This document shows, in pieces, positions 11,711-45,852 of a DNA stretch of 64,000 bases. Numbering within the stretch: the stretch's first letter is position 1; each line of letters starts with the position of its first letter. Below the pieces are notes generated by a model. It made no database searches, was not told where the DNA came from, and saw only the letters and a program-made list of their open reading frames with translations. The position numbers and the translations under genes are program-made. Source of the DNA: Bradyrhizobium sp. B097 (GTDB taxonomy: Bacteria > Pseudomonadota > Alphaproteobacteria > Rhizobiales > Xanthobacteraceae); NCBI RefSeq assembly GCF_038957035.1, contig NZ_CP152412.1, positions 7,250,501-7,314,500 of the forward strand. The letters are read 5' to 3'.

Positions 11711-11737
11711 GAACACGCACCTTCCGGGGGAAACTTC

Positions 11738-12802
11738 ATGACGCACATTGCCACCCACATCCGAATATTCGCGTCCGATCCGTCCGACGAACTGGTCGAG
11801 AAACGCACGGCCGCAATCGGCGAAATCGCGGGCATCTTCAAAGGACGCCGACAGGTCGGGGAGTTGCTGCAGACCGCGAACGATCTTGCCGTTGCCGTCC
11901 AACAGGGTGGCAAGCTTTCGGCCGCACTGACAGGGACCATCGAGGGAGCTATTCGAAAGACATCGACGGCATTCGTCGCCGAGGGACATGAGCTCGAAAT
12001 GCTGGTTTGCGGCATGTCTGGCGCTCTGCAGGCCGTGTCGGGCAGCGCAGCCCTCCTTCACGGCGCGGTATCGATTCCCGACGTACTGTCGTTCGGATTG
12101 TGGTCCGCGCTCTCGTACCAGAAGCCGCGGACCGAGCCGAAGATCGAACAGCTTCGCAACGAACTCCTGCAATCCGCGCATGGTCATTGCGCCGCCGTTG
12201 CGCGCGACAGTCGGCAACGCATCAAGGTGTCCGACCCCGAATTCAAGGAAGCCCCCAAGAAAGAAGAAGAACCGGAGACCCCGTTCGATGCTTCGGCCAT
12301 GAAGGAAGGTCTGAAGCCTTTCAAGGACGCTATCGCCAATCTTAGGTCGAACGCCGCCGTCGATCGCGAGGAGATCGACCTCCTGTGGTGGGTGCTGTCC
12401 GATTGGAGCTCGCTGCTCGGACGGCGCTTCTCCGACGAGAAGGTTGGCGACGCTGCGGCTGCAGTGGCGTCCGGCATCGAGGCCGGGCGCATGATCCGGA
12501 GGGCGCCCGCGGAAGCCCACCGCCATCTGATCCTGCGCTACGTACCGACCGGAAAGGACCTGTCGCTGATCGAGCTCCTGACCGCGATCGGTGGGGACCG
12601 CACCGCGCTCGCACCTACCGAGGCGGAAACCTACATCTCGAATTGCCCCGCAGTCTTTCCGCTCTCGAACGCGCTGCGAACCGGGGCAGCCTCGGATCCA
12701 AGGGCGAAGATAAAACGCCCGCTGGGCGATTGGGCGGCACGGGCTTTGCTGGAAAGCTCGATCGCGCACCTCTGTTCCAACAATACTGGCGTGTCCGTCT
12801 GA
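11738..12802 (+). CDS. GTPase-associated system helical protein (GASH-like)
   Basis: A 354-residue, almost entirely alpha-helical protein with no catalytic motif. It contains a glycine/alanine-rich central part (VSGSAALLHGAVSIPDVLS) and a highly charged linker (PKKEEEPET) near residue 170. Its place between a metallophosphoesterase and paired GTPases matches the 'GTPase-associated system helical domain' proteins described from comparative genomics of NTP-dependent conflict systems. The identification depends mainly on context. It has a good ribosome site (GGGGGAAA), and its TGA overlaps the next start codon (12802), indicating translational coupling. A scaffold or adaptor role is inferred. 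Confidence 0.6.
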   Translation: MTHIATHIRIFASDPSDELVEKRTAAIGEIAGIFKGRRQVGELLQTANDLAVAVQQGGKLSAALTGTIEGAIRKTSTAFVAEGHELEMLVCGMSGALQAVSGSAALLHGAVSIPDVLSFGLWSALSYQKPRTEPKIEQLRNELLQSAHGHCAAVARDSRQRIKVSDPEFKEAPKKEEEPETPFDASAMKEGLKPFKDAIANLRSNAAVDREEIDLLWWVLSDWSSLLGRRFSDEKVGDAAAAVASGIEAGRMIRRAPAEAHRHLILRYVPTGKDLSLIELLTAIGGDRTALAPTEAETYISNCPAVFPLSNALRTGAASDPRAKIKRPLGDWAARALLESSIAHLCSNNTGVSV

Positions 12803-13791
12803 TGGCCCTCGGCTGCGCCAAGGATAACTGCACCGTCGCGGAGACCGGCATCTGCCTCGCCGAGAATCCGCCGGAGACATGTCCGTTCAGGATGAAGGCT
12901 CCGGCCGACGACGGACCCGTGACTTCACCCGAACCGCCGCTTCCGAAACCCGAGCGGAATCCCAGCCTACCCCACAGTCGCGCCCTTACTCCCCCGTTGG
13001 CGCAGGACTTGATGGCGCATCGGTACTGCACCCTCGTCGGCATCCTGGGCGATCCGGACGCCGGGAAGACGGCGGCCTTGGTCAGCCTCTACCTGTTGGC
13101 GTCCAAGGCCAAACTCAAGGAGTTTTCCTTCGCCGATAGCCGGACCCTGATGGCGTTCAACGAAATAAGCCAGGGCGCCCTCGACTGGAACGAAGACGAT
13201 CCGCCGGATCAGTTCACGCAACATACCGAGTTGGCCGACGACCGTATGCCCGGTTTTCTGCATCTCCGCCTGCGGCATGGAGCAGAGGAAAAGTTCGACT
13301 TCCTGCTGCCGGACCTGCCGGGAGAATGGTCGCAATCTTTCATCGACAAGGACCGAAAGGATCGACTTCGGTTCCTGAACAGAGCCGACGTCATCTGGCT
13401 ATTTATGGACGGATCGCAACTTCGCGAGCCATCTACGCGCCAATATGTCGTCCACCGAATGCAGCTTCTCATCGACCGCCTTCGCACTTCGATCAATCAT
13501 GTGCCGCCGCTGGTACTGGTGTTGACGAGGCGGGACAGCGGTGAGGTGCCGGCGTCTTTCATCGAACCGATCGTTCAGGAAGCGGAGCAACAGAACCTGC
13601 AGATATCTGTCGCTCAGATCGCCTCGTTCGGTGACCGGGGAGACGTCGACCCGGGCTACGGCCTCGAGGCTCTGATGCGGACCTGCCGGCCCGATGTCCC
13701 GGACCGCACGCCGACCTGGCTCGCACCGGGACCAGATATGGAGGAAGGTAGGGCGATGCTGCGCTATCGGCACCCGGAGCACCGTCCATGA
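12802..13791 (+). CDS. P-loop GTPase with Cys-rich N-terminus (double-GTPase system, first GTPase)
   Basis: The N-terminal 30 residues carry four cysteines (C5, C10, C18, C27), a likely zinc-binding knuckle. The GTPase domain starts with GILGDPDAGKTAAL (Walker A/G1, about residues 80-93). It then has DLPGEW (G3, DxxG) and LVLTRRDSG in the position of the NKxD base-recognition motif, here TRRD. The length of 329 residues suits a single domain. The start overlaps the upstream stop by one base and the stop overlaps the next gene by four, so the two GTPases are almost certainly made together, as in 'DO-GTPase' pairs. I infer a switch that controls the effectors of the operon. Confidence 0.75.
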   Translation: MALGCAKDNCTVAETGICLAENPPETCPFRMKAPADDGPVTSPEPPLPKPERNPSLPHSRALTPPLAQDLMAHRYCTLVGILGDPDAGKTAALVSLYLLASKAKLKEFSFADSRTLMAFNEISQGALDWNEDDPPDQFTQHTELADDRMPGFLHLRLRHGAEEKFDFLLPDLPGEWSQSFIDKDRKDRLRFLNRADVIWLFMDGSQLREPSTRQYVVHRMQLLIDRLRTSINHVPPLVLVLTRRDSGEVPASFIEPIVQEAEQQNLQISVAQIASFGDRGDVDPGYGLEALMRTCRPDVPDRTPTWLAPGPDMEEGRAMLRYRHPEHRP

Positions 13792-14780
13792 GCGAGAGAA
13801 CCTTCATTCTGGTCGGAGGACCAGATTGCGGCAAAACGAACTATATCGCGCGTTTGTGGGAGTCGATTCGCTCGAAGACCGGTGAGTTGGTCGCGCCGCA
13901 TCCGCCGCAGAACGTCGAATTTGTAGAGAAGGCGTTGGAGTTTCTCCTGAAGGGCGAATTCGCCCCCCGCTCCAATCGGGATGTGGCGGAATCCACCCAC
14001 AGCTTCGAGGTCTCTGTACGGAAAGCGGGCGATGCGAACGGGCCGCTGTCGGACATCGTCGTTCCCGATGTAACCGGAGAATTGTGGAAAAAAACGCTCG
14101 AGACATACGAAATACCCAAAGACTGGATGCGAAGTCTCGAAGGCGCATCGGGGGCCTTGCTCTTCGTCCGAGAAGGTTCGGAGGAGAACGAGGTAGCTCT
14201 CGAGTGGGTGACCTGCGGCAAATTTCTTGCCCAGCGTGCGAAGGCGCGAGCGACACGCAACGCCAAGAATGACGCGGCCGGCGACGGCAACGACGCACCG
14301 GCCGACGAGAGCAAAGAGCCGTCCGCCCCTTCCGAGGCTCCCGGCAACGATCAGGAGCAGAGTGGCCAGCCCGACAATGACGAAGGGAAGCTGACCAAGA
14401 TACCGACACAGATCGCTCTGTGCGAATTCCTGCGATTTCTCGAATTCGGAATGAAGAGAGCGCCATGCGCGCCGCGACCGCGCGTCGCCGTACTGGTCAC
14501 GGCTTGGGACAGGCTCGACAAGGAGAAACGGGTACAGGGTCCCATGGCATATCTCCGGACCCAATATCCGATGTTCGCGGGGCGGCTCGAAGACATCGAA
14601 ACGCTCGAAGTGAAGGCTTTCGGCGTCAGCGTCGTGTCGGGCGATTTTGCCGATCCAGTGTTCAAAGCGGAGTTCTACGAAAAGGGTCTGAAGAATGCGG
14701 GATACGTCGTCACCGACGACAAGCCCGACGAGTTCGTTCCGGACCTGACCCTGCCGGTCTCCTGGGTGATGACGAGCTAG
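13788..14780 (+). CDS. P-loop GTPase (double-GTPase system, second GTPase)
   Basis: A 330-residue protein with FILVGGPDCGKTNYIARLW at the very N-terminus (G1) and PDVTGELWKK (G3, DxxG). LVTAWDRLDKE replaces NKxD. An acidic, low-complexity insert of about 60 residues (around residues 160-205, rich in D, E, N and P) separates G3 from G4. It overlaps the preceding GTPase by four bases and is followed without a gap by the GAP1-like gene. The pairing of two diverged GTPases with non-canonical G4 motifs is the signature of the system and suggests a heterodimeric switch. Confidence 0.75.
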   Translation: MSERTFILVGGPDCGKTNYIARLWESIRSKTGELVAPHPPQNVEFVEKALEFLLKGEFAPRSNRDVAESTHSFEVSVRKAGDANGPLSDIVVPDVTGELWKKTLETYEIPKDWMRSLEGASGALLFVREGSEENEVALEWVTCGKFLAQRAKARATRNAKNDAAGDGNDAPADESKEPSAPSEAPGNDQEQSGQPDNDEGKLTKIPTQIALCEFLRFLEFGMKRAPCAPRPRVAVLVTAWDRLDKEKRVQGPMAYLRTQYPMFAGRLEDIETLEVKAFGVSVVSGDFADPVFKAEFYEKGLKNAGYVVTDDKPDEFVPDLTLPVSWVMTS

Positions 14781-17432
14781 ATGCAGCCGCTCTTCCTAGA
14801 CCAACAGATCCACGGCTACCGAAGCGGTCATCAGTTGATCGCCTCGACCAGGCGCCTGCCGCATCAAGACCAGGATTTGATCGACCGTCTTTCCGATATC
14901 GGCGGCCAATTGCGACCAGGCGAAACGTTCAAGCCCTATCTGACTGCCTATCCCCTGCCGAGCGGAAGCGATTACGTCGTTGCCCGAACGTGGCAAGATC
15001 TCGGCGCGCCGAGGTCCGGTTGCGTCCGCACCCGGAGCTTGATCGTCACGATGGCACAATGGCTATCGATGGACGGCATCCGCTCTCTTCTTCCCCTGCT
15101 GGTTTCGGTGGAGTTCGACGAGAAGCTGGCACGACTGGCACCGGCGGATCCCTCCCCGTCGACTAGAACGGTATCCGATCCGAGGCGGGCGGAATTGGTC
15201 GAGGCTCTGTTCTTCGAACCGCGACAGCCTATCGTCGTCTTCGATAGCGCGGAGGCCGAGCCGATCGTCGAGCGACTTCTCGCCGCGTTCTGGCCGGCGC
15301 TGAAGCGGAATTTCTCCGTCTGCACGTACGCGCTGGCGCCGCGCAAGATCGAGGGACGACCGTTCGACCTTATCTTCGCGCCGAAAAGTGCACGCACTCG
15401 GTTCTCCGACTGGAGCGGCCGACGAGTCGAAGGTGTGCCGAAGTCGGAACGGCATTCGTGGTCCCGGCTGGTCTCCGAGAAGATATTCGACGCTGAAGAT
15501 CCGGATCTGCGGACAATCGACACGCTCGGTGCGTTGCGCGCGGACCGGAGGGGCGACGAGGGCGCCTTGAGGCTGTCGTTGATGTGGAACGATCTGGCCG
15601 CGAAGTCGCGCACCACACCCTCTGCCGTTCTCGGCATGCTGGACATCCTCAATTCCCGGGCATGGCCCGAATTCGATCGCAGCCGCCTGCAGGGCGTCGT
15701 TCAAGGAGCGACGGAGCTCGCCGTCGCCGAGCCGGACGAAGCCGACGCCTTGCGTTTCCTTTCGACGCTTGCGGCCAAGATTGCGAACTTCGACGTCGGC
15801 ATGCTGGACGACCTCAATCTGTCCGGGCTTGCAAGATCGCTGACCAGGCGTTCGCCGCACCGTGCTCTGTCGTATCTTCGGTCGGAAATCGACGCCGGCC
15901 GCGATCCCGTGATTCCGATCGTCACGGGAATGGCCGATGGCCTCGGTGAGGAGCGCTTCGACGACCAGACCTCGGAGTTCGTGCTGCAGCTGCCTCCCGA
16001 CCTCTCGTCGGTCATGATTTCGCGCAGCGAGAAGTATGCCCGGGAGGTCTGGCAAAGGTGCGGGTCGGACGCGTCGGCATGGGTACCGGCAACCAAAGCG
16101 GCGATCGGGTCGATGAGCCGGCATGACCGAGCCGATCTTCTTCAAAAGATTTCCGCATGGATGACGACCGAAGCCCAGGCGCCAGTGATGGAGGCAGCCC
16201 TCGACGGCGTGTCCGGCGACGATCTGGTCGGCTTCGCCGTGGCTATCGGAAGGCAGACCGGATTTGACATCGCAGCGTTCGACGAACCTATGGCGAACGC
16301 TGCGCGGAATGCGGAATCGCTCAACGGACTTCGTGCTTCGATACTTTCGAATTTCCGCACCGAGGGCGCCGATCGCTTCCTGTTGTCGACCTTGGACCTC
16401 TCCGCCGCGGACCTCGCATGGCTCGACGGTGAAGTGGAGAAGACGAGGGCTGTCGGACTGTTGCGTCAACTTCTTGACAATGCATCGCCGAAGGCGCTCG
16501 TCTCGGTGCTGCGAGATCCGACCAGCAGAGATCGTATTCTCGGACTGCTGATGGAAGACGTGGCGGGCTCGGCGGGACAGTTGATCCGTGTCGCAGGCTC
16601 AAGCGACCTGCCGATCGACCGCTGTCTGGACATCGGACGAACTGTGCTGCCTTTCCTCGCCTCGGAGCAGCGCGACAAAGTGTTCTTGGAGCTGCTTGGT
16701 AGAGCGCTGGCCCAAGCGGATCCGGACGACGCGCGGGTGGCGTCAGTGATCGAGGAATCGCACGGCATCGTGTCGCCTCGGCAATTGGTGCATCTGGCAA
16801 CGCCAAACGGCGTATCCACGCAGCGGGTAGCGGCGAACTTGGTCCTGTTGAGCACGGTGTCCGAGCGGGTCCGGCGTACTGCCGCCGCGGCCATCGAGGA
16901 TCTCTGCGAGAGATTGATCCATCGGTACGGCGAGAACTTGGGCGAGGCCGGCTATAACGCCTGGGCCGTTCTGCTGAGAGAGTCGGGGAACGTATCTCCC
17001 GACATCCAGCTTCGTGCCTCGCTGCCCACGCTTCCGTTCGCGGTGGGAAAGCGCGACTTGCCGGTTAGTGCCCTTATCGGTGCGGCGTTTCCGCCCGTCT
17101 ACGCCGAGCTTCTCCGATCGACGGGTGACGAGGATTTCAAGCGGTTGCCGGCGCTTCTGTCGCTACCGCTCAGCATCTTCATCGACTGGGACCGCGCCAA
17201 GTCGGCGCGGCACGAATTGGTCGACGCGTATCTGTATTCATCGTGGCCCCCCGCTGACTTACTTCTCACGTCGCTCGCCGCGAACATCCAAAGCGAGACG
17301 TTGCGTCGGTTGGTCGGAACCCATCGCGGGCGTGACTACCTAGCCGCGATCGACCGGGACAGCTACAGATTGGAGCCGGCTCAGTTCGGCCGCATTCAAG
17401 ACTGTCTCAGCCGCTTGAATTATCGGTACTAA
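14781..17432 (+). CDS. GTPase-associated protein 1 (GAP1-like), large regulator
   Basis: An 883-residue protein whose N-terminus, IHGYRSGHQLIASTRRLP then SDIGGQLR, YLTAYPLPSG and RTWQDLGAPRSGCVRTRSL, is the hallmark of the GAP1-N2 domain found next to double GTPases. The central and C-terminal 600 residues are helical and repeat-like, with an EAxxFLSTLAAKI pattern. The ATG immediately follows the TAG of the second GTPase. In this class of conflict system the large GAP1 protein is thought to sense or regulate through the GTPases; the exact trigger is not known. It is intact and closes the operon. Downstream DNA belongs to an IS66 element. Confidence 0.75.
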   Translation: MQPLFLDQQIHGYRSGHQLIASTRRLPHQDQDLIDRLSDIGGQLRPGETFKPYLTAYPLPSGSDYVVARTWQDLGAPRSGCVRTRSLIVTMAQWLSMDGIRSLLPLLVSVEFDEKLARLAPADPSPSTRTVSDPRRAELVEALFFEPRQPIVVFDSAEAEPIVERLLAAFWPALKRNFSVCTYALAPRKIEGRPFDLIFAPKSARTRFSDWSGRRVEGVPKSERHSWSRLVSEKIFDAEDPDLRTIDTLGALRADRRGDEGALRLSLMWNDLAAKSRTTPSAVLGMLDILNSRAWPEFDRSRLQGVVQGATELAVAEPDEADALRFLSTLAAKIANFDVGMLDDLNLSGLARSLTRRSPHRALSYLRSEIDAGRDPVIPIVTGMADGLGEERFDDQTSEFVLQLPPDLSSVMISRSEKYAREVWQRCGSDASAWVPATKAAIGSMSRHDRADLLQKISAWMTTEAQAPVMEAALDGVSGDDLVGFAVAIGRQTGFDIAAFDEPMANAARNAESLNGLRASILSNFRTEGADRFLLSTLDLSAADLAWLDGEVEKTRAVGLLRQLLDNASPKALVSVLRDPTSRDRILGLLMEDVAGSAGQLIRVAGSSDLPIDRCLDIGRTVLPFLASEQRDKVFLELLGRALAQADPDDARVASVIEESHGIVSPRQLVHLATPNGVSTQRVAANLVLLSTVSERVRRTAAAAIEDLCERLIHRYGENLGEAGYNAWAVLLRESGNVSPDIQLRASLPTLPFAVGKRDLPVSALIGAAFPPVYAELLRSTGDEDFKRLPALLSLPLSIFIDWDRAKSARHELVDAYLYSSWPPADLLLTSLAANIQSETLRRLVGTHRGRDYLAAIDRDSYRLEPAQFGRIQDCLSRLNYRY

Positions 17433-17580: not shown

Positions 17581-17877
17581 CTAAACCTCGTCGGGCTTTT
17601 CGGCCTTCGGCTTAACGATCGCCGCGAGCACCTGGCGGCGTTCTTCAATGATCCAAGGAGCGTCCTTGTGGATCTGGATCAGATTTTTGAGGTTCTCGAT
17701 TCCATCATCGGTGAACGCCATCACCCCGTCTTCACCGACACCGACGACCCATAGCTGGCCATCCTCGGTGTCCATTTCTTCGGCGACCTCGAACAGCCAT
17801 TCCTCGTCTTCGCCGAGCATCTCAGCGACATGGCTGAGAGTGAACACGTGGCTGACCTTGTTGACGTGCCCCATCAA
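17581..17877 (-). CDS. IS66 accessory protein of unknown function
   Basis: A 98-residue acidic protein beginning HVFTLSHVAEMLGEDEEWL, followed by GVGEDGVMAFTDDGIENLKNLI. Its start overlaps the TnpC stop by four bases, so it is a translationally coupled passenger. Similar small proteins commonly follow TnpC in rhizobial IS66 elements. The first half looks like a degenerate helix-turn-helix (SHVAEMLGEDEEWL). The function is unknown. Confidence 0.6.
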   Translation of the reverse strand: MMGHVNKVSHVFTLSHVAEMLGEDEEWLFEVAEEMDTEDGQLWVVGVGEDGVMAFTDDGIENLKNLIQIHKDAPWIIEERRQVLAAIVKPKAEKPDEV

Positions 17878-19529
17878 GCCGCCTGTGCCGCAAGGCCTTG
17901 CTGTTGCGCAGTCTTCCAGTTCCAGGGCAGCAGCTCATCGAGCCTGTGGGCGGGGTGGGTGGCGATGCGAGCGAGTACATCGGCGAGCCAGGCCTGAGGG
18001 TCGACGTCGTTCATCTTGGCAGAGACGATGAGGCTATGCATGGCGGCGGCTCGGCGCCCTCCGCGGTCGGACCCACAGAATAACCACGACTTTCTGCCCA
18101 ATGCGATGCCGCGCAGCGCTCTTTCGGCTGCATTGTTCGAGAGGCAAACGCGACCATCGTCGAGGAAGCGTGTGAAGGAGGCCCAGCGCTTGAACATGTA
18201 GTTCATGGCCTTGGCCAGATCGTGGCCGCGGGAGAGCTTGGCGCACTGCTCGCGCATATAGGCTTCCAGATCGGCGACGAGCGGTGCGCTCTGCGCCTGG
18301 CGAACAGCCTTTCGTTGGTCGGCGTTTTGGCCATTGATAGAGCGCTCGATCTCGAACAGAGCGTCGATGCGGCGCACGATCTCCATGGCGACGGGCGAGA
18401 TGACGATCTCCTTCTTTCCGGCCGCTTTGCGCCGCGCGTTCTCCTCAAGATCCGCCATGGCGAAGAACGGGCGCCGGGCATGGACCCAACAGGCCGCTTC
18501 GCTGATAAGCCCAGGACTTCGCTCGGGCTCGTAGAGCTTGATGTATCCGCCGAAGGCGTCGGCCTGGAGGATGCCGGTGTAGTTGGCCAGATGCGCCTGC
18601 GGATGCTCACCACTTCGATCGCGCGAGTAATAAAACATCGCCGCCGGCGGATCTGAGCCGCCGAAGGGGCGGTCGTCCTTCACATAGACCCAGCATCGCG
18701 CGACATCGCACTTGCCCAAGGCCAGCACGGGCACGGTGGTGTCATCGCCATGGAGGCGTTCGGCTGCCATGACGTGGGCTTCCAAGAGCCGCGACAGCGG
18801 CTCCAATACCGTGCAGCACGCCCCAACGGCGTCGGCTGCGGTCGACAGACTGATCGGCACGCCCTCCAGCGCGTAACGCTCGGTCTGTCGGTTCAGAGGC
18901 TGATGCTGGCCGAACTTCTCATAGAGGAGCATGGCCAGCAGGCTGGGCCCCGCCCATCCTCGCGGGATCACATGGAATGGTGCCGGTGTCTGGCTGATTT
19001 TCTCACAGTCGCGGCAAGAGAACTTCTCGCGCACTGTTTCGATCACCTTCCACTGACGCGGCACCGATTCCAGCGTCCGGGTCACGTCTTCGCCGAGCTT
19101 GCGCAAGCGATTGCCGCCGCAGCATTCGCACGCCGTCGGCGGATCGATCACCACCCGCTCGCGTGGGAGATGATCGGGGAACGTCTGGCGCTCGGCGCGC
19201 TTGCGTATAAATCCGCGTACCGTCGTCGTCCTCGCGACTGCTCGTTCCGCCGTCAGTTCGTCTTCTGTGGCGTCAGCTTCCAGCTCTTCGAACGTCAGCG
19301 CCAATTGGTCGATCAGCCGTGATGATCGCTCTGACCGTTGTCCGTGGATCTGACGCTCAAGCTTGGCGATCCGCAGCTTCTGCTGGGCGATCAGCGCACC
19401 GTCTTCCGAGGCTTTCGCGCGGGCGACCGCGAGCTCCGCTACAACCTCTAACGCCTTCGCGCGCTCGACCGCCAACGCCTCTTTCAGAGCCGCAATGTCA
19501 TCCGGAACAGCGCCACGATCAGCATCCAT
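17874..19529 (-). CDS. tnpC: IS66 transposase TnpC
   Basis: A full-length 551-residue transposase. The N-terminus has a leucine-rich coiled coil (about residues 10-60) followed by a zinc-finger-like CECCGGNRLRKLGED. The DDE residues are recognisable in HGDDTTVPVLA (first Asp), LQADAFGGY (second Asp) and SNNAAERALRG (Glu). It catalyses DNA cleavage and strand transfer of the element. The frame is uninterrupted, so the copy may still be active. Confidence 0.9.
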   Translation of the reverse strand: MDADRGAVPDDIAALKEALAVERAKALEVVAELAVARAKASEDGALIAQQKLRIAKLERQIHGQRSERSSRLIDQLALTFEELEADATEDELTAERAVARTTTVRGFIRKRAERQTFPDHLPRERVVIDPPTACECCGGNRLRKLGEDVTRTLESVPRQWKVIETVREKFSCRDCEKISQTPAPFHVIPRGWAGPSLLAMLLYEKFGQHQPLNRQTERYALEGVPISLSTAADAVGACCTVLEPLSRLLEAHVMAAERLHGDDTTVPVLALGKCDVARCWVYVKDDRPFGGSDPPAAMFYYSRDRSGEHPQAHLANYTGILQADAFGGYIKLYEPERSPGLISEAACWVHARRPFFAMADLEENARRKAAGKKEIVISPVAMEIVRRIDALFEIERSINGQNADQRKAVRQAQSAPLVADLEAYMREQCAKLSRGHDLAKAMNYMFKRWASFTRFLDDGRVCLSNNAAERALRGIALGRKSWLFCGSDRGGRRAAAMHSLIVSAKMNDVDPQAWLADVLARIATHPAHRLDELLPWNWKTAQQQGLAAQAA

Positions 19530-19595
19530 GCAACGCAGTGAATCACATATCGAGCGCGTTGTGACTCCCCAAAATGGCCAGTAGCTGCAGATTTC

Positions 19596-19943
19596 TCAAC
19601 CCGCACTCTGTGGCCTCCAGCTTAGTTGTGGATTCCTCCAGTCAATTCCTTCCAGCATGTAGGCCATCTGCGCCGCCGAGATTGACACCGCACCAGCCGA
19701 TGCTGAGGGCCAGATGAACTTGCCGCGGCCCAGGCGCTTGGCATAGAGCGACATGCCTAACCCGTCATGCCATAAAATCTTGACCAGATCGCCGCGGCGA
19801 CCGCGGAAGATATAGAGGTCGCCAGCATGAGGATCGCGCTTCAAGCTCTCCTGAACCGTCAGGGCCAGACTTTGCATGCCGCGGCGCATGTCGGTGTGGC
19901 CGGTGGCGATCCAGACCCTGACGCCGCTCGGGATCGGGATCAT
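19596..19943 (-). CDS. tnpB: IS66 Orf2 protein TnpB
   Basis: A 115-residue protein typical of IS66 Orf2: RVWIATGHTDMRRGMQSLALTVQ near the start, then LYIFRGRRGDLVKILWHDG. It is required for IS66 transposition, but its biochemical role is unclear. The start overlaps the TnpA stop by four bases. It has the usual length for the family. Confidence 0.9.
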   Translation of the reverse strand: MIPIPSGVRVWIATGHTDMRRGMQSLALTVQESLKRDPHAGDLYIFRGRRGDLVKILWHDGLGMSLYAKRLGRGKFIWPSASAGAVSISAAQMAYMLEGIDWRNPQLSWRPQSAG

Positions 19944-20365
19944 TGCCGCCTCAGAAGCTCAAGCACCCGCTGCAGTGCCTCGGCGTCAACATCCCGGTCA
20001 ACGCGAACGCGACAGCCGCCGCTAAGCTCGATCTCGATTGTTCCGGCGCCTGGACGCTGCGCAGGAGGCGAAGACGGCGGTTGTGGCGCGTACCTCGGTG
20101 CCAGAGCCGACGTAAAGGCGATCTCCACAGGAACAAGCGCTGGCTCGGCATCCCCGCTCAGCCGATCCTCGCGCGCCAACCGGCGCCACGTGAACAATTG
20201 GCTCGCAGACAACCCGTTGCGCCGAGCCGTCACTGACACCAATCGTGGGCCGCAATAGCTCTCGGCAACGATCCGTTGCTTTTCTTCCAATGTCCAACGG
20301 CGTCGAGCGCCCGTCGAGACAACTTCCAGTCGGGAGACCTTCGAATTAGGCGTATGGTCAGTCAT
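19940..20365 (-). CDS. tnpA: IS66 Orf1 protein TnpA
   Basis: A 141-residue protein with a helix-turn-helix of the transposase-8 type (RRWTLEEKQRIVAESY, then GLSASQLFTWRRLARED) and a Pro-rich linker. The C-terminal region (IEIELSGGCRVRVDRDVD) is conserved in IS66 Orf1. It is the first gene of the IS66 operon and probably binds the ends of the element. Confidence 0.85.
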   Translation of the reverse strand: MTDHTPNSKVSRLEVVSTGARRRWTLEEKQRIVAESYCGPRLVSVTARRNGLSASQLFTWRRLAREDRLSGDAEPALVPVEIAFTSALAPRYAPQPPSSPPAQRPGAGTIEIELSGGCRVRVDRDVDAEALQRVLELLRRQ

Positions 20366-21330: not shown

Positions 21331-21588
21331 TCATTTTGCCACATCTAGAGCAAACGCTTCACGATAGTCCTTCCATCCAAATCTGTTGATCATGAAAGAG
21401 ACTATCTCCGCCTGCGCAATAAAATCGTTGAGCTCTATTCTTTCATTGAGCAGCTTGTCCGTGATGGCAACAACGTCGTCTTTACTGAAAGAGCAAACAC
21501 GACAGACTCGGCCTTGGTCCTGCTGAGTGACAACCTCCAAAGTTCCGAGCGGCAGCTTCAGGGCGTCACGCGGTTGAGAGATTCGCAT
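21331..21588 (-). CDS. Small unknown protein, last gene of the tryptophan-linked operon
   Basis: An 85-residue protein that starts 11 bp after the stop of the TrpRS-like gene, so it belongs to the same transcript. It has two close cysteines (VCRVCSF) and a helical C-terminal half with an aromatic segment (MINRFGWKDYREAF). I do not recognise it. Its size and operon position would allow a binding partner, an immunity-type protein or even a small substrate of the upstream enzymes, but there is no direct evidence for any of these. Confidence 0.5.
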   Translation of the reverse strand: MRISQPRDALKLPLGTLEVVTQQDQGRVCRVCSFSKDDVVAITDKLLNERIELNDFIAQAEIVSFMINRFGWKDYREAFALDVAK

Positions 21589-21599
21589 GTCACAGTCTC

Positions 21600-22601
21600 C
21601 TAGCTGAAGTCGTATGATTTTCTTCCTATGTCAGGATACAGCGCATCTTGCAGGCTCGCAATGGTGTTGCGCATCTCGCGTCTTACTCGTTGTTGGCCGA
21701 GCCTGAGAATCTCCTCGACCTCATCATCGGATAGACTTAAATCGGCCCGCCGTCGGCGCGCCTCAGAAAACGTCTTCTCAAACTGCTGCTTCACCAAATT
21801 TCGGGCATCGTCTTCGCCGATCTTCGCCGATCTGTAGGTCGAACGTACGTCCTCGATTTCGTCAGGGCCGGCCATCAAGGAGAAGAGCTGAAAACAGATA
21901 TCTGTTTCTGGAACGAGCGGCTCGTGCTTTCGCACTTTCTCCACCCGGATCTGCCGGAAGCAGCGATTTAATGATCGTTCGCTTTCGAACACCGAAATGA
22001 CGTTCTTGTTGGTGCTGGACATCGGCTTTCCATCGACACCGGGCACTCGGACTTCCGAGGGAAAATCGCCCCTTGCGGGCAACGGAAGCAAGGTACGCTT
22101 CGCAGCTGAGTTTACGAAATTAGCAACCTCCTCACAGTAAGTAACGTGCCGTTGCTCGTCGTGCCCCACATATATGCGACTGGCACGAAGCCCCAGTATG
22201 TCGGTCGCCATCAGCTGAGGATACAACAAACGCGCCAACGAGGGGTCAACGTTCCCGCTAAGCCTGTCGATCAGTTCTCGCGCAGGAGTCTTGCAGCTCA
22301 GTAGCCACATTAAAGAGAAGAGTTCTCGAATGTCAGACTGACGATAGATGACGGTCCGCTCTGGATTGAAACCAAGCGCAATGAAATCGCGGATCAGGTT
22401 CTTGTTCTGCAGCTTCAGGTTTACGTCGGCATCGAAGTCAACCAAGTAATGCCTGTCGGCGATAAATAGAAAGTTGTTTCGCGGGTACAGATCCTGCCCC
22501 TCCAGTGAGCCCTTGAGAGCGCCGAAATAGTTTCCCAGATGAACAGTGGCATCGCTTTTCAGAGCGCTGACACTCCGTTCGAGGTAGACAGCGTCAGGCA
22601 T
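21600..22601 (-). CDS. Tryptophanyl-tRNA synthetase-like protein
   Basis: A 333-residue protein, the usual TrpRS length. The HIGH signature is VHLGNYFGALK (residues 20-30). YPQLMATDILGL (127-138), VGHDEQRHVTYCEEVANFV (145-163) and VPGVDGKPMSST (186-197) align with the TrpRS core, the last replacing KMSKS by PMSST. The second Lys of KMSKS, which stabilises the transition state, is therefore missing, although some TrpRS families also vary here. Its start overlaps the stop of the dioxygenase-B3/B4 gene by eight bases. Inferred role: charging tRNA-Trp, or activating Trp or a derivative, for the neighbouring enzyme. It is unlikely to be the cell's only TrpRS because it lies in an accessory operon. 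Confidence 0.75.
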   Translation of the reverse strand: MPDAVYLERSVSALKSDATVHLGNYFGALKGSLEGQDLYPRNNFLFIADRHYLVDFDADVNLKLQNKNLIRDFIALGFNPERTVIYRQSDIRELFSLMWLLSCKTPARELIDRLSGNVDPSLARLLYPQLMATDILGLRASRIYVGHDEQRHVTYCEEVANFVNSAAKRTLLPLPARGDFPSEVRVPGVDGKPMSSTNKNVISVFESERSLNRCFRQIRVEKVRKHEPLVPETDICFQLFSLMAGPDEIEDVRSTYRSAKIGEDDARNLVKQQFEKTFSEARRRRADLSLSDDEVEEILRLGQQRVRREMRNTIASLQDALYPDIGRKSYDFS

Positions 22602-24558
22602 ATCGGGTCTTTACCAAGAATACATCCGGCTGAGCACCGGCGATGGAGAAAGCTGCGGTCTGAACGGTGTTTAATGCTGCTTCGAAATTTGCTTCTGGCA
22701 GGCTTGGCGCCCCCAGAACGACGAAGAGAAGAGACTTGAAAATCTGAGCTTTTGGATCTTTCAACAGCTGCACGCTGGTTCGTTTATCCGGTCCCTGCAC
22801 ATAGGACGCGAATGTACGAACCTGGTCGACAAGGACGAGTTCGCCGGATTTGAGAGCTAGCGTTCGGCCATTTAACGAAGCCAGGTGCTGACCGTCCGTT
22901 GCGGTCGTGACCCGGATTGGCAGCTGCATATGAGTAGCGTCGTGGATGCCCATCAGGAGACCGGTGGACAGCTCTAGGGACAAGAGTAGCTTAGCTATCA
23001 CTGGATCCCGCAGGCCCTTTTTTAACACCTGCGCAAGCTGCCTCTTCAATGGAAAAGTCGTGCTATATTTTGCGAAAATCGGATCATAGTATCGAAACAA
23101 CTTGCTTAGAGCATTCTGCTCTTGGTCCGACGCTTGTTTTAGCCGCTCATTCACCTGCTTTGCCAAAATATCTGCCGTTTCAATAAGCTTGAGAGCCGGC
23201 ACATCGTGCGTGACGATAAATCCAATTCTCAGATTCAGAAACTCCTCGGTGCTGACGAACGCATCATCCGTCGACACCACCGCGGCGTCATGAGCATCGG
23301 GCCGGCGTCCGTCGAACAGACCTGGGCTCTGAAAATGCTTTTGAAGATAACCAATTCCTTGCTCCCCGGTGCCAACAGTCTCTTTCGGAAGATACCTTCG
23401 TGCGATACCGAGATGAACGTTGCGCCAGCTCTGCAGACTTCGATCAAGCGTGAAGAGCTCCGCTCGAATTGCCGGAGCCATCGCCAAGGTTGATTTCTCG
23501 ACTTCGGATAGCAGCCCGACCAGACTTGCCTCTGGCGGCGGGCTCCAGTCCGCTAGCCAAGAGAGTTCTTTATGTTTCTGCACGGTCTGCTGCAACACCG
23601 TGCGCTTTGCATCAGAAAGTCCACGGCTCAATATTTCAACATGCTGGTATTTTTCTGACTGTATCGCACTGGAATCACCGGTTGCTTCACGAAAGCCGTC
23701 GAAAAAGCTCTCAACAGGCAACGTACGGAACACGGACAGCACACGAAGCAGAAACTGAGCAAAGAAATTCGACTCCTTGAGAGCGAGCAGCGTCGTGGAG
23801 AGTTCACTTCGGTGGAACGATTGAACGGCAGCCCTGATCCCCACGATGATCGCCCACAAGCAGACCTCGAATAGATGTAGCGTTCTAAGAAAAAGGTACT
23901 CGTCGTGATACATCGATTGAGGGAGGGCGGTAAGATGCGCGAGCGCTACTTCTTGCTCGACAGCGTAGGAAAGCCAATCGATCTGGTATTTTGAACGCAT
24001 TCCCGCGTAAACAGGTGGAATTGCGGGGCGTTCAACATTAGTCAAAAATGAGCAGAGAATCTCAAGTTCTTCGATCCTCTCCTTTACGTTCACCTCTTGA
24101 AAATTGATCCCGGTAGCGTCGGCCGCACGTCCGCCCTGGATCCTCTCATGACACTCGAGCGCGTGACGCTCGAAGTGCAACCAATCATCACAAATAATGG
24201 CAAGCGCAACTCGACACTTTGTCCACGTGCTTTGCACACTCGGGTTAGAGTACACCCCGATAAATCGATTTAGCAGTGCAACGTTTGTATAGATCGGGTA
24301 TCGGGGTTTGGGATTTTCCGAGAGTGGACGCTCGGAGCTCCACAGATCGTTGACTAGGTTGGAGAGACGCTCCTCTTCAAAGCTTAGATTGGCCGCGTTA
24401 GCATATACAAGAGCCACCCGTTCAAGGGCGGATACGAATTCCGCACGCGCGGCTGGATCGACGTTGGCGCGCCCAGTCTCACGCGAGGACCGAACGTAAT
24501 CGTTCAAGCTGATCGGGCTGAGAATGTTGATAATGGCTTTGGAGATCATCCTGAGCAC
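22594..24558 (-). CDS. Fusion of a tryptophan 2,3-dioxygenase-like domain with a B3/B4 tRNA-binding/editing-like domain
   Basis: A 654-residue protein. Residues about 60-420 align with tryptophan 2,3-dioxygenase (TDO). HDEYLFLRTLHLFEVCLW (218-235) matches the TDO block HDEMLFI..HQ..ELW. GFREATGDSSAIQSEKYQHVE (288-308) matches GFRD.LG.SSGFQS.QYR..E, keeping the substrate-carboxylate Arg (R290). SWRNVHLG (377-384) keeps the proximal heme His (H382), and GTGEQGIGYLQ (396-406) matches the GTGG loop. The distal-pocket His falls on L227, with a His at 228. Residues about 435-654 resemble the PheRS-beta B3/B4 family (COG3382 type): RYYDPIFAKYSTTFPLKRQL, GLLMGIHDATHMQLPI, GQHLASLNGR and KSGELVLVDQVR. 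Such domains bind or edit aminoacyl-tRNA. The next gene is TrpRS-like, so action on Trp or Trp-tRNA is inferred. Confidence 0.75.
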   Translation of the reverse strand: MLRMISKAIINILSPISLNDYVRSSRETGRANVDPAARAEFVSALERVALVYANAANLSFEEERLSNLVNDLWSSERPLSENPKPRYPIYTNVALLNRFIGVYSNPSVQSTWTKCRVALAIICDDWLHFERHALECHERIQGGRAADATGINFQEVNVKERIEELEILCSFLTNVERPAIPPVYAGMRSKYQIDWLSYAVEQEVALAHLTALPQSMYHDEYLFLRTLHLFEVCLWAIIVGIRAAVQSFHRSELSTTLLALKESNFFAQFLLRVLSVFRTLPVESFFDGFREATGDSSAIQSEKYQHVEILSRGLSDAKRTVLQQTVQKHKELSWLADWSPPPEASLVGLLSEVEKSTLAMAPAIRAELFTLDRSLQSWRNVHLGIARRYLPKETVGTGEQGIGYLQKHFQSPGLFDGRRPDAHDAAVVSTDDAFVSTEEFLNLRIGFIVTHDVPALKLIETADILAKQVNERLKQASDQEQNALSKLFRYYDPIFAKYSTTFPLKRQLAQVLKKGLRDPVIAKLLLSLELSTGLLMGIHDATHMQLPIRVTTATDGQHLASLNGRTLALKSGELVLVDQVRTFASYVQGPDKRTSVQLLKDPKAQIFKSLLFVVLGAPSLPEANFEAALNTVQTAAFSIAGAQPDVFLVKTRYA

Positions 24559-24570
24559 CAGAACTCGAGG

Positions 24571-25293
24571 CTACTCGGGCCGCAGCATTTCAAACGAATA
24601 GAGGTAGCTTGTAGTCTGATTTGGAGATTGTTTGCTGCTCCACCGGCCCGGTCCTCCTTCCATGACGAAGGACAACTGCTCCGTCTGCACCAACTTATCC
24701 AGAGGATGGCTATCGCTTGCAGTGAAGTTCTTTATGGATACCTGCAGCTCATTTGTTTTTTCCTGCCAATCGACGAGACGTATCGAGCGAATGCCGTATT
24801 CACATTCATTCTCCCCCTTGTCTTCGGCATAACCGACATAGGAACTTCTGGGCGAGCTGAATGCCAAGATGATCTTCCCGGTCCACACACAACTTCGTTT
24901 TTGAGTCGCTGGATCTACGCGTCGCAGGTAAATCTCCCACGTTCCCTCACGTGGATGAGGACTGGTGGAGAGCTGCGTCGCAACTGCAGCCGTACAGGTT
25001 CCGAGAATCGCAACGATCGCAGCGCCGAAGATCGATTTACTCATCCAAGGATCGCGAAAAGGCACGATCGATGTTGCGTGTAATGTCCAGAGATAAACGA
25101 TCGCTGAAAATAGACAAATGCTGCTCGCGACCAACACATCGGCTGGACTGCTCGGCCTGAGCACCACCGCATACAAGATCGACGGAAGCAGTATTCCCGT
25201 GGCAAGTGAAAGTGCCAAAAGTATCGCGGCAACTGGCTGATCAGTTACCCGCGAATGGTCGTGGTGATGCTCATCGTTGCTCATACGCGCCAT
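24571..25293 (-). CDS. Membrane protein with four helices and a soluble C-terminal domain
   Basis: A 240-residue protein. A His-rich N-terminus (DEHHHDH) is followed by three to four hydrophobic helices (about residues 20-45, 53-72, 88-110). The soluble part contains EGTWEIYLRRVDPATQK and GKIILAFSSPRSSYVGYA, which look like a beta-rich domain facing the periplasm. It starts 19 bp after the collagen-like gene and ends 12 bp before the dioxygenase fusion, so it is within the same operon. No family was recognised. It could anchor the exported protein or sense a signal for the system. Confidence 0.5.
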   Translation of the reverse strand: MARMSNDEHHHDHSRVTDQPVAAILLALSLATGILLPSILYAVVLRPSSPADVLVASSICLFSAIVYLWTLHATSIVPFRDPWMSKSIFGAAIVAILGTCTAAVATQLSTSPHPREGTWEIYLRRVDPATQKRSCVWTGKIILAFSSPRSSYVGYAEDKGENECEYGIRSIRLVDWQEKTNELQVSIKNFTASDSHPLDKLVQTEQLSFVMEGGPGRWSSKQSPNQTTSYLYSFEMLRPE

Positions 25294-25312
25294 CTCGTGG
25301 GTGAATTCACGC

Positions 25313-26287
25313 CTACTGGTTCGTTATGATCTGACCCCGATTTCCAGGCTGCCCGGGGTCTCCGGCTGGTCCGAAGTCGCCCGGGGGCCCATCCGGACCC
25401 GGAGGCCCTCCTCCGCAGTACGTTGTTCCTCCGCCGCCGGGGCCTCCAGGACCTCCCGGCCCGCCCGATCCGCCCAGGCCACCTGGCCCGGGGGCTCCCG
25501 GGTTTGCTGAGAATGTGATCAGATCAACCTGAAGAAAGATTTTCCCTTTGAGAACGAGCACGCCACCATCGCCCCCCCTGCCTCCGGGAGCACCCCTCTC
25601 GCCTGCTTGTCCTTTGCTTCCCCGTCCCCCGGCGCCTCCGCCACGCGCGCAATCGAAAAGATGATCGGCTCCGCGCTGACCCGGCTCTCCGGGCGCCCCC
25701 CTCTGTCCCGGACGGCCCTGCCCTCCCGGTCCGCCGTCACTTCCGTTGAGAGAAATCGTCAGTTGGCTCCCGTTGGCCAACGCGCCATCGAGCAATACTC
25801 TGCCGCCAGTGAGGCCGGCGGCCCCAGGGACGCCCACGCGCGATGGGTCCGGCGGACGCACGATCTGCTCATCCTCGAACGCTTTTATGGACCCGCTTTC
25901 GGAAACGATGATCGGTGATGAAATTTCCAGAGCTCCGCCATTGGTAATAATTTGTGCGCTGTTACGAAGCTCGAATCGACTCGCGCGGATTGACAGTGAA
26001 ATCGCGGCACCTGGCCGACCAATCCTGAGTGTCGTTCCATCCAGGATCAGTGCGGGCTGCGCCTTCAGCCACTCCGCATACTGACCTTCGTTCAAATCCG
26101 CGGGCGGCCTCCTCAGGACGTCCGGCGGAAACTCCGAAAGAGACGTTTGGGGGCCACGCAGAACGAACTCTTTATCCTCCGCTAGCGCAGAACGGTCGAA
26201 GGACAAACAACAAAGAGCGATAGCAACAATCCATTTTGCAAAGGTCACTGAATTCCCCTCAACAGAAGCGACACTCCTTGCACGCAA
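25313..26287 (-). CDS. Exported collagen-like (Gly-X-Y repeat) protein
   Basis: A 324-residue protein with a signal peptide (hydrophobic IVAIALCCLSF then ALAEDKE, cleavage near residue 36). A beta-rich N-terminal domain of about 130 residues (LRIGRPGAAISLSIRASRF, SPIIVSESGSIK) is followed by two collagen-like tracts (about residues 180-245 and 265-318) with many GPGG, GQPG and GRGG triplets. Two isolated cysteines interrupt the tracts (FDCARGG and TTYCGGG). Bacterial collagen-like proteins form extended trimeric stalks, often at the cell surface. It is the first gene of the five-gene operon. The start could also be an internal Val codon nearer the hydrophobic core. Confidence 0.65.
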   Translation of the reverse strand: MRARSVASVEGNSVTFAKWIVAIALCCLSFDRSALAEDKEFVLRGPQTSLSEFPPDVLRRPPADLNEGQYAEWLKAQPALILDGTTLRIGRPGAAISLSIRASRFELRNSAQIITNGGALEISSPIIVSESGSIKAFEDEQIVRPPDPSRVGVPGAAGLTGGRVLLDGALANGSQLTISLNGSDGGPGGQGRPGQRGAPGEPGQRGADHLFDCARGGGAGGRGSKGQAGERGAPGGRGGDGGVLVLKGKIFLQVDLITFSANPGAPGPGGLGGSGGPGGPGGPGGGGTTYCGGGPPGPDGPPGDFGPAGDPGQPGNRGQIITNQ

Positions 26288-26465: not shown

Positions 26466-27362
26466 CTATGGTTTGCGCAGTGCCTGGTTCAGAACCATCG
26501 CCAACCGCACACCCGCCTTGCTCAGTTGAATTGCGACGTCATTTGTTGCCGTCGTGACATAATCGTCAGTCAACCTAAAGCTTCCGCGCGCGTTAGGAGC
26601 CGGAAGCTGACCATACGCGTCATCTTTTGACAGAGCGAAAGCTTCCTTGGCCCAGTCGTCAGGGTTGCCGGCTTGCCACCGCGCTTGCTGTTCCTTCGTG
26701 ATGTGGCCGATGAGATCGGAGGCTATCGTTCGAGAATCCGGGCCCAGCTGATCTACAAACTCGGTGTCCCAGAAATGGTGAAGATTGCCGGCGCTAAGCC
26801 CGGCCGCCGAAACTAGCTTGGCATTGCCGCCGCGATCATGATCGTCAGAGCTGTGCAGCGGCTGGTGCACGTCGCCGACGAAATGAAGCAAGAATTTGAG
26901 CGCGGCGACCTGCTCCTCGATGTCAGTCGCGGGATTGGCGAGTTCGGCCGCAAACTGCTGAATCTTGTCGACCACACAATCGGCCGCCGCCCCATCTGAA
27001 GCCGGCGTGCCATTGGGCACGGGTGGATGATTGAAACAGGCCTCGTCGAGATTCGGTGCGGCAATCTCAATATCGACAAAGTGCCACTGCCGCGTCCGCT
27101 CGCGTGAATTGCTTGCATTCGCATCCCGGTACTTGTCCGCCCATGTAGCTGCTGACGCAATGTCATGAGCGGTGAGCGGATCGGTATCCGCGGCCAGAAG
27201 GGCATTCACCCGCTTGCGCACATCCCCATCCAGAAAGGACTGCGCCACCAAGGCTACAACTTCATGCCCTTCGTCACCCCAAGCGAGTGCGCGGCTTACG
27301 TTCGAACAGCTGAGAAATGCGGCACAGGCGAGGATCGCCAGGCGCGTCGCCACTCGTATCAT
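26466..27362 (-). CDS. Secreted S1/P1-type zinc nuclease
   Basis: A 298-residue protein with a signal peptide of about 27 residues ending ALA, so the mature protein starts with WGDEGHEVVA. The N-terminal Trp is a zinc ligand in this family. Further zinc-ligand blocks are present: ATWADKYR (Asp), RQWHFVDI (His), LLHFVGDVHQPLHS (His/Asp/His) and AGNLHHFWDTEFV (HxxxD). The enzyme should cleave single-stranded DNA or RNA in the periplasm or medium. Length and motif order match the family. It is transcribed in the same direction as the collagen-like operon, but 178 bp separate them. Confidence 0.85.
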   Translation of the reverse strand: MIRVATRLAILACAAFLSCSNVSRALAWGDEGHEVVALVAQSFLDGDVRKRVNALLAADTDPLTAHDIASAATWADKYRDANASNSRERTRQWHFVDIEIAAPNLDEACFNHPPVPNGTPASDGAAADCVVDKIQQFAAELANPATDIEEQVAALKFLLHFVGDVHQPLHSSDDHDRGGNAKLVSAAGLSAGNLHHFWDTEFVDQLGPDSRTIASDLIGHITKEQQARWQAGNPDDWAKEAFALSKDDAYGQLPAPNARGSFRLTDDYVTTATNDVAIQLSKAGVRLAMVLNQALRKP

Positions 27363-27681
27363 GACCAGCTCCTCAAATTACTGGCAGAACAATGAAGATG
27401 GGAAATTCGAGGTCCCTGAGAGGCCCTCACAATATTGACGCAGCCCAACTCTCGCAGAGATTGCGTGAATGTCAACCAGCACTCTACCGGGTGAGCCGTC
27501 CGATCAAATCATTTCAAGCGCCGCTGTACGAAACGTACAGTCTTGGAGAGACGTATCCCTATTCGAACTCTTCATTTCGGCTGTAGAATTCCACACTGCG
27601 GTCCTCAGAGGTATGGCACCGCATTGGGACAAGCGCGCTCCGATCGGCGCACACGTCCGAGGAATTCTGCAGGGTGATCTC

Positions 27682-27873
27682 ATGCGGAAGAACGACGTGA
27701 CCTGCCCTGGCTGCGGGGCCGGATTCCGGCGCATCGAACTCACATCTGAGCCTCCGACCAAGGGTGAATATCGCTGCCCTGTTTGTGACACCACGCTAGA
27801 GCGCTTCAGTGGCGACAAGCTCATCGCCTACCGTTTAACCGTGCAGCCGGAGTTCTCGCGGGTCCCGAAGTAG
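27682..27873 (+). CDS. Small zinc-ribbon protein
   Basis: A 63-residue protein from an ATG preceded by AGGGTGATC. It has two CxxC knuckles (TCPGCGAGF and RCPVCDTTL) separated by 22 residues, a clear zinc ribbon, with a C-terminal tail (LIAYRLTVQPEFSRVP). It is common in Bradyrhizobiaceae as a hypothetical protein. The same frame extends upstream to 27469, but that part has no protein-like character. A hairpin terminator follows directly. Confidence 0.6.
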   Translation: MRKNDVTCPGCGAGFRRIELTSEPPTKGEYRCPVCDTTLERFSGDKLIAYRLTVQPEFSRVPK

Positions 27874-45068: not shown

Positions 45069-45852
45069 TGAGGTCGTGCGGGATGGTTATGAGATATTTG
45101 GTGTCGAGTTTGCCGCCCTTGACGAGCATGCGCTTTCCCGTGCCGAGATTGACTTTTGTCTTGTCGATCTGTTTGAGCCAGGAGTGCTGATGCCGTTCCG
45201 CGAACCAGAAGAATAGCCGTTTGACCTTGACGCTTTTGCAGTCGTTCAGAAGCGTTTGCAGCCGCCGGGGACTTAGGGTCCTCAAGCCTTCTGCCAGTGC
45301 ATCGACCTGATGGAAGCTTTCGTAGCGCGGTAATTCGTCGAGCAGCTCAAGGAACGCACGTTCGGGTGTCGATACCGTGAGAGGCCAGTCGAATGTTCCC
45401 GGTATTTCCCGCGTCGTGCCCGACTTTGATCCGGGCTGGCTCGCGTGCGTTTTGAACAGGCTTTGCGCGCGATGAACGCGGAACCTCTGTTTGAGCGGGA
45501 GCTTGCCAAGCCAGCCGGGAGCAGGCCGCGTTCCGTATAGATGTACGGTCGAAGGACCCGTCTGACTCAAGTAGTGGCCGAGACCTAGCGCTTCGATGGC
45601 GGTACGTCCGCCGACAACGAGGTCGGAGCCGAGCAGTCGCTGGAGTGAAATGACAACGCTCTGCCAAGAGAGTTCGCCGAGTGGGCGCTTGAAGGTTCCT
45701 CGCGCCGGCTGAACGAGCCAGCCGGCCGAGACGTACTGGCTGCGCAGACTGGTGGAATATCCATGCCGTTCCATCCAGGCGGCATCGACCAGAAGTCCCT
45801 GCGGGAGAGTCCTTTCGAGCCTGTTTAGCTTTCTCTCAGTTTGCTCAGCCAT
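45055..45852 (-). CDS. abiEi: AbiEi-family antitoxin and autorepressor
   Basis: A 265-residue protein with an N-terminal winged-helix-like region (LVDAAWMERHGYSTSLRSQY and VSAGWLVQPARGTFKR) followed by an AbiEi C-terminal domain (LGSDLVVGGRTAIEALGLGHY; VSTPERAFLELLDELPRY). AbiEi proteins bind inverted repeats in their own promoter and neutralise AbiEii without direct contact (type IV). A matching operator is visible upstream at 45905-45931, with a further half-site abutting the start codon. Confidence 0.8.
   Translation of the reverse strand: MAEQTERKLNRLERTLPQGLLVDAAWMERHGYSTSLRSQYVSAGWLVQPARGTFKRPLGELSWQSVVISLQRLLGSDLVVGGRTAIEALGLGHYLSQTGPSTVHLYGTRPAPGWLGKLPLKQRFRVHRAQSLFKTHASQPGSKSGTTREIPGTFDWPLTVSTPERAFLELLDELPRYESFHQVDALAEGLRTLSPRRLQTLLNDCKSVKVKRLFFWFAERHQHSWLKQIDKTKVNLGTGKRMLVKGGKLDTKYLITIPHDLNAPI

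Follow-up and report, generated by a model that had tools for sequence, protein, structure and literature searches.

Gene organization of the locus

The window analysed here, a stretch of 64,000 nucleotides from the 9.25-Mb single-contig genome of Bradyrhizobium sp. B097, contained a gene for a fusion of a tryptophan 2,3-dioxygenase (TDO)-like domain with a B3/4-like domain. It was followed on the minus strand by genes for a relative of tryptophanyl-tRNA synthetase (TrpRS) and for a small protein (Table 1). An earlier reading made from the letters only had listed five minus-strand open reading frames at 21331–26287, the first three spaced by 19 and 12 bp, the next pair overlapping by 8 bp and the last pair 11 bp apart, and the open reading frame listing reproduced both coordinates and spacing. 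Its 654-residue fusion frame was also found, but the start codon was revised: ATG 24549 (651 residues) was probably used rather than GTG 24558, because nucleotide homology to both relatives described below began at 24549 and the residues MISK were common to all three proteins. With this start, the fusion gene was 21 bp from the preceding gene. Residue numbers of the fusion are counted from GTG 24558 throughout. No tRNA gene was found in the window, and the small, membrane and collagen-like proteins matched no Pfam family over the cut-off.

Table 1. Features of the locus, with positions in the window
Feature	Position	Strand	Basis and remarks
Small protein, 85 aa (relatives 90–91 aa)	21331..21588	-	Three intact loci and the remnant in G166
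TrpRS-like protein, 333 aa, probable pseudo-synthetase	21600..22601	-	PF00579, residue comparison, tree
8-bp overlap ATGNCTGA	22594..22601	-	Fusion stop and TrpRS-like start; all three loci
TDO–B3/4 fusion protein	22594..24549	-	651 aa from ATG 24549; open reading frame with TDO and B3/4 matches; homologues with 63–64% identity
B3/4-like domain, CtdA/PheRS type	22597..23262	-	Fusion residues 433–654
TDO-like domain	23314..23925	-	Fusion residues 212–415; pairwise and MAFFT alignment
Membrane protein, 240 aa	24571..25293	-	Separate module, outside the conserved unit
Collagen-like exported protein	25313..26287	-	Start codon unsure; paired with the membrane gene, separate module

A conserved three-gene unit and a separate pair

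A protein search of 265 Bradyrhizobium genomes identified the whole fusion in three of them, with 62–64% identity: the genome of the window, the B. acaciae relative (genome G001) and the B. valentinum relative (genome G257, locus L038). A fusion match of any kind was present in 89 genomes, 84 of which aligned in the TDO part only, with E values of 1.4e-5 or weaker, and genomes G162 and G163 matched residues 2–54 alone. The order of fusion, TrpRS-like and small gene (85–91 residues) was the same in the three genomes with the whole fusion, and the fusion and TrpRS-like genes overlapped by the identical 8 bp in each intact locus. When 11 genes of the window were compared with both relatives, the three core genes were the only ones that stood at the fusion in each.

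Neither the membrane gene nor the collagen-like gene was found in the stretches examined in B. acaciae and B. valentinum (19 and 20 kb, the B. valentinum contig beginning about 3.4 kb before the fusion), and the gene preceding the fusion in both was neither of the two. In a sample of 257 genomes, which may omit the two relatives, the membrane protein was found in three: the genome of the window, G146 with 87% identity, and G054 with a weak and partial match. The collagen-like gene adjoined the membrane gene in G146, and the other three genes were not near. Homology between the window and G146 (L111:10140-11949) spanned 24572–26190 with 78% nucleotide identity, its end coinciding with the membrane gene's stop codon; therefore, the junction of two modules lies between 24549 and 24572.

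By these comparisons the conserved unit is the three genes, whereas the gene for the collagen-like protein and that for the membrane protein form a two-gene module of their own. The sequence-only reading had joined all five genes in one operon with a cell-surface part. That grouping was abandoned, since the three downstream genes recurred without the first two and the first two recurred alone in G146; the pair likewise stood apart from the TDO–B3/4 and TrpRS-like block. The proposed link between the fusion and the TrpRS-like gene was conserved in all three intact loci. The neighbourhood survey thus supported co-occurrence of three genes and not of five.

The TDO-like domain

The 654-residue frame matched the TDO family PF03301 with an E value of 2.6e-8 and a score of 34.1 bits (cut-off 34.9), and the score was 38.3 when flanking sequence of the frame was included. 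The match to TIGR03036 had an E value of 1.9e-13 and 50.4 bits, against a cut-off of 390.7. Profile searches with the frame thus gave the TDO similarity and the weak B3/4 similarity that had been suggested from the letters, and both recurred in all three family members. In a search with a hidden Markov model (HMM) built from 25 TDOs of the genus, the three fusions ranked first with E values of 1e-9 to 6e-8, above 600 shuffled sequences. The hhalign score of the fusion against TDO was 63 over about 100 columns, compared with 12.9–14.9 for three unrelated pairs. No other PF03301 match was present in the genome of the window.

Active-site positions were located by pairwise alignment with Xanthomonas TDO, in which the second stretch (with His382) was weak on its own, and by MAFFT alignment with five of the 25 fetched canonical TDOs of the genus. 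Residues Phe51, Arg117, His240 and Gly253-Thr254-Gly255 of Xanthomonas TDO corresponded to Phe223, Arg290, His382 and Gly396-Thr397-Gly398 of the fusion, and Arg290, His382 and Gly396-Thr397-Gly398 were invariant in the three fusions. We take Arg117 and Thr254 of the Xanthomonas enzyme to bind the free carboxylate and amino-acid end of the substrate, and His240 to be the proximal heme ligand. The distal histidine, His55, was replaced by Leu227 in all three fusions, with His228 adjoining it. The protein is called TDO-like rather than TDO because this position differs. The positions of the proximal histidine, the substrate arginine and the Gly-Thr-Gly motif are shared with TDO, MarE and PrnB, whereas the distal histidine is gone, an N-terminal extension of about 200 residues is present, and a B3/4 domain is fused. 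In MarE, by contrast, a distal histidine is present: His55 contacts the indole nitrogen, and Arg118, the match of the substrate arginine, contacts the carboxylate (PMC11904535).

The closest relative found outside the genus was a TDO-like protein of 428 residues from Nonomuraea, with 31% identity over 232 residues in the TDO part. It shares the leucine at the distal position; PF03301 was its sole match and, unlike for the fusion, there was none to B3/4. A second TDO with the distal histidine kept was found near it (the two at L037:7433-10768). Further TDO homologues were found in a region of nonribosomal peptide synthetase (NRPS) genes in Streptomyces NBC_01343, and genes for nitric oxide (NO) synthase and an aminotransferase adjoined those of Micromonospora. 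The actinobacterial proteins thus differ from the fusion in having a second TDO nearby and in their biosynthetic-type neighbourhoods, and the homologues that lie near each other (L037, L126, L127) possibly form heteromeric enzymes. An N-terminal extension common to the fusion and the Nonomuraea protein was considered and dropped, with BLAST E values of 0.006–0.009 and a profile score not above shuffles.

The B3/4-like domain

The C-terminal part of the fusion matched PF03483 with an E value of 5.9e-5 and 23.2 bits; a second score was 25.4, and both lay under the cut-off of 29.3. Against PheT, its hhalign score exceeded all of 150 shuffles, and the sequence match to the B3/4 domain of the beta subunit of phenylalanyl-tRNA synthetase (PheRS) spanned about 54 residues. 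This similarity suggests a B3/4-like domain related to the PheRS editing domain, although the fusion is not part of a PheRS. At the position of the PheT motif LHVFD, the fusion has MGIHD, by eye nearer to LGADD, which standalone B3/4 proteins have there.

The AlphaFold2 model of the whole fusion was unusable (pLDDT 37.8). With a low-confidence model of the C-terminal domain, the structural comparison placed CtdA first (standalone B3/4; PDB codes 9f7e and 9mkl) with a match spanning the domain, tied with others. Against membership of the CtdA group, a search with an HMM of standalone B3/4 proteins listed shuffled sequences and not the fusion. CtdA hydrolyses canavanyl-tRNA(Arg) and adjoins canavanine-degradation genes in legume-associated bacteria (PMC10018355). 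The module resembles it in the legume-associated host and in combining an editing domain with an enzyme of degradation. It differs in that the domain shares a polypeptide with a TDO-like domain and has a TrpRS relative encoded next to it, and the sequence similarity is marginal. A guanidine riboswitch lies near many, but not all, CtdA genes, whereas no Rfam family matched at the gathering threshold in the window or in loci L038, L039, L046 and L111, and riboswitch control of the module was rejected.

The TrpRS-like protein

The TrpRS relationship proposed for the 333-residue protein was borne out by matches to PF00579 (E 1.4e-21) and to TrpRS structures in the PDB (best E 8.1e-35). Its score of 130.6 bits fell below the TIGR00233 equivalog cut-off of 176.75, and the best NCBIfam model was PRK12556. 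A canonical TrpRS was encoded elsewhere in the genome. For comparison, 30 canonical TrpRSs were used, namely that of the same genome and the 29 best-scoring from 120 genomes of the phylum, which are not an even sample because the best-scoring ones were chosen.

The two lysines of the KMSKS motif, which serve ATP in class I synthetases, were conserved in all 30 canonical enzymes. In the three TrpRS-like copies they were replaced by Pro, Arg or Thr and by Ser, Gln or Arg, respectively (Pro193 and Ser196 in the window). Position 115, lysine in the 30 canonical enzymes, was Ser, Thr and Thr in the three copies. The invariant Gly13 and Gly18 were alanine in the TrpRS-like protein; at the HIGH-equivalent motif, HLGN was kept, with alanine in place of the glycine before it. 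Residues His21, Tyr127 and Asp134 were kept, the last in all three copies and in all 30 canonical enzymes, and Gln149 of the canonical enzymes was replaced by glutamate. From the alignment, Asp134 and Glu149 presumably correspond to Asp135 and Gln150 of E. coli TrpRS. In the E. coli enzyme, Asp135 binds the indole nitrogen and Gln150 acts at the acceptor stem (PMC10201369).

In the tree, the three copies formed one clade (100/100) on a stem of 5.96, so long that long-branch effects call for caution. The protein is thus like bacterial TrpRS in its fold family as judged by sequence, in the HLGN motif and in Tyr127 and Asp134, whereas it is unlike it in its TIGR00233 score, in the loss of the KMSKS lysines and other invariant residues, and in the long stem. 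Charging of tRNA is unlikely because none of the three copies has either of the KMSKS lysines, and the protein is probably a pseudo-synthetase. A second active TrpRS conferring antibiotic resistance was disfavoured on the same residues. A comparable case is SbzA of the SB-203208 pathway, a synthetase-like protein that transfers isoleucine from Ile-tRNA in antibiotic assembly (PMC6331615). Both are synthetase relatives that stand beside the housekeeping enzyme, SbzA being used outside translation. SbzA, however, is of the isoleucyl-tRNA synthetase type, and its HIGH and KMSKS motifs are both present in slightly altered form.

Distribution, remnants and selection

The small protein was found in four of the 265 genomes of the genus, the fourth being G166. 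The G166 locus (L046) was almost identical to the B. valentinum locus except that L038:3198-5790 was missing, a stretch made up of the fusion gene and the first part of the gene for the TrpRS-like protein. In G162 and G163, homology to the B. valentinum locus ended at the identical base, L038:3585, which lies within the first 10% of the fusion gene; in G162 this break coincided with a contig end. The next homologous stretch in both began at L038:8055, past the module and in inverted order, and neither the rest of the fusion nor the small gene was found elsewhere in the two genomes. From these alignments, the loci in G162, G163 and G166 are read as remnants of the module.

In wider samples, one genome among 385 from the class and one among 397 from the order had the fusion, each time that of the window, and one among 198 from the family had the small protein. 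A scan of genome contigs with the three-member fusion alignment returned the B. acaciae and B. valentinum loci. Wider relatives of the module proteins may exist beyond the collections searched. No relative of the fusion, the one module protein searched there, was found in the phage collection, and none of the three proteins had relatives in the viral_contigs collection. Among plasmids, there was one relative of the fusion, in the TDO-like part only, none of the small protein, and no match to the module DNA. The TrpRS-like protein matched 106 plasmid records, all below 60% identity, and those named among the eight records listed were TrpRS. A plasmid, phage or viral origin was rejected on these searches. 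The TrpRS-like protein also matched phrog_37857 of PHROGs (E 3e-24), a family of unassigned function that is probably TrpRS-related. For the small protein, nothing significant was found in Pfam, NCBIfam, PADLOC, PHROGs or the PDB (one PDB match, E 1.6).

Between B. valentinum and B. acaciae, dN/dS was 0.038, 0.072 and 0.090 for the fusion, TrpRS-like and small genes, respectively, values that are rough because dS (3.7, 2.0 and 2.0) was near saturation; pairs including the window were saturated. The intact genes look maintained, with signs of purifying selection in these rates.

Genomic surroundings

The window has a clear island character, and a defence role of the module is possible. Genes with GASH, DO-GTPase1 and GAP1-N1 domains by Pfam were located at 10355–17432, and these domains are assigned to conflict systems in PMC7159879. 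The upstream protein at 10355–11710 matched PADLOC "Effector" and PDC-S60. An AbiEii/AbiEi type IV toxin-antitoxin pair was located at 44148–45852. Wadjet-type genes occupied 57619–63999 (JetA at 57619–59265, a DUF4194 protein at 58998–59969 and JetC at 59966–63421), with an open frame running past JetC to the end of the window. A HipA-like protein and transposase genes were also present. The protein at 10355–11710 presumably resembles calcineurin-type phosphoesterases, and the genes at 17874–20365, directly downstream of the module, are by resemblance taken to be IS66-type transposase genes. A protein with leucine-rich repeats (LRR) and a novel E3 ligase (NEL) domain at 46460–48406 was effector-like, in a plant-associated genus.

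An S1/P1 nuclease and zinc-ribbon pair at 26466–27873 recurred only in B. acaciae, 8 kb from the fusion, with 82% and 77% nucleotide identity. Standing beside differing variable genes, the pair perhaps marks an integration hotspot; a serine recombinase also lay near the module in B. acaciae. In G166, a Schlafen AlbA_2 gene (L046:10077-11336) was located 59 bp past the small gene. In B. valentinum, the front part of such a gene was left (L038:6765-7211), with homology breaking at about L038:7036 and a frame that resembles a transposase following.

Proposed function and alternatives

The explanation that we tentatively prefer, at somewhat less than even confidence, is a three-gene trans-editing and detoxification module that polices tryptophan-like amino acids on tRNA(Trp). 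The TrpRS-like protein, having lost amino-acid activation, would recognize tRNA(Trp), an aromatic amino acid, or both. The CtdA-like B3/4 domain would then hydrolyse mischarged aminoacyl-tRNA(Trp), and the TDO-like domain would oxidize the released or free amino acid and so prevent recharging, with the small protein as a structural or regulatory subunit. By analogy with CtdA, the TrpRS relative would provide the specificity, and a tryptophan-like amino acid would be removed from tRNA(Trp) and then destroyed. In this scheme we infer every activity, the binding of heme, tRNA(Trp) as the target and the way in which one step is coupled to the next. Oxidation of tryptophan while still on the tRNA, as the sequence-only reading had suggested, is disfavoured because Arg290 and Thr397, at positions that bind a free carboxylate, are kept, while the carboxylate of an aminoacyl-tRNA is esterified. 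That reading had also known of no system with these parts; in the open-access literature searched, a scope that leaves most subscription papers outside, no described counterpart of a TDO–B3/4 fusion with a TrpRS-like protein was found. The parts belong to or resemble known families, and it is their combination that was not found described.

An anti-phage or abortive conflict system is a less likely competitor. On infection, the fusion would oxidize tryptophan and strip tRNA(Trp), halting translation, while the TrpRS-like protein sensed or held tryptophan or tRNA(Trp) and the small protein controlled the effector. The module is rare and patchy, full in three of 265 genomes with remnants in three more, and its loss in those relatives may point to a cost. 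The GASH/DO-GTPase1/GAP1-N1, AbiEii/AbiEi, JetA and JetC genes share the window, AlbA_2 follows the small gene in the G166 remnant, and Fic and KAP-NTPase genes lie near B. valentinum-type loci. However, co-residence with defence genes is weak evidence because the window is a mixed island, and the neighbours vary between loci. A sensor or trigger is not obvious. At an E value of 0.01, PADLOC-DB gave no family match for any of the five proteins, and no relatives came from the phage search with the fusion or from the viral_contigs searches with the three proteins. A narrower form of this idea, which we consider improbable, is an inducible immune module convergent with the human interferon-gamma response, in which IDO1 is paired with TrpRS (PMC11346423). 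The TDO-like domain would destroy free tryptophan, the deacylase would strip tRNA(Trp) and the pseudo-TrpRS would sense or hold the target, so that UGG codons became unreadable in an infected cell. If the conflict explanation were true, nutritional immunity through removal of tryptophan would operate inside bacteria.

A role in specialized metabolism appears rather unlikely, a little more so than conflict. The TDO-like part would oxidize tryptophan or a compound derived from it, while an aminoacyl-tRNA would be used or released as a donor by the TrpRS-like protein or the B3/4 domain, leading to a small signalling molecule or an antibiotic. The Nonomuraea relative with distal leucine near a second TDO with histidine, the Streptomyces NRPS region, the Micromonospora neighbourhoods and the SbzA precedent (PMC6331615) are consistent with it. 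On the other hand, of the 11 window genes compared, nothing beyond the three core genes recurs beside the fusion in both relatives, and SbzA retains HIGH and KMSKS while the TrpRS-like protein does not. Decaying or unrelated genes carried by mobile elements, with no common pathway, are very improbable. The three remnants, the transposase genes in the window, frames resembling transposases near the relatives and the missing catalytic residues of the TrpRS-like protein would fit decay. Yet three copies are intact with an identical overlap, the two large proteins are 61–64% identical between window and relatives, dN/dS is 0.04–0.09 between B. valentinum and B. acaciae (with dS of 2.0–3.7, near saturation), and the indole-binding aspartate and the TDO substrate positions are kept.

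If the trans-editing explanation is true, the module would combine editing and destruction of an amino acid at tRNA(Trp), in a system in which a synthetase paralogue acts as the recogniser and an oxygenase is fused to a deacylase. It would extend the discovery of CtdA to an aromatic amino acid and would hint at a tryptophan-like antimetabolite met by these soil bacteria.

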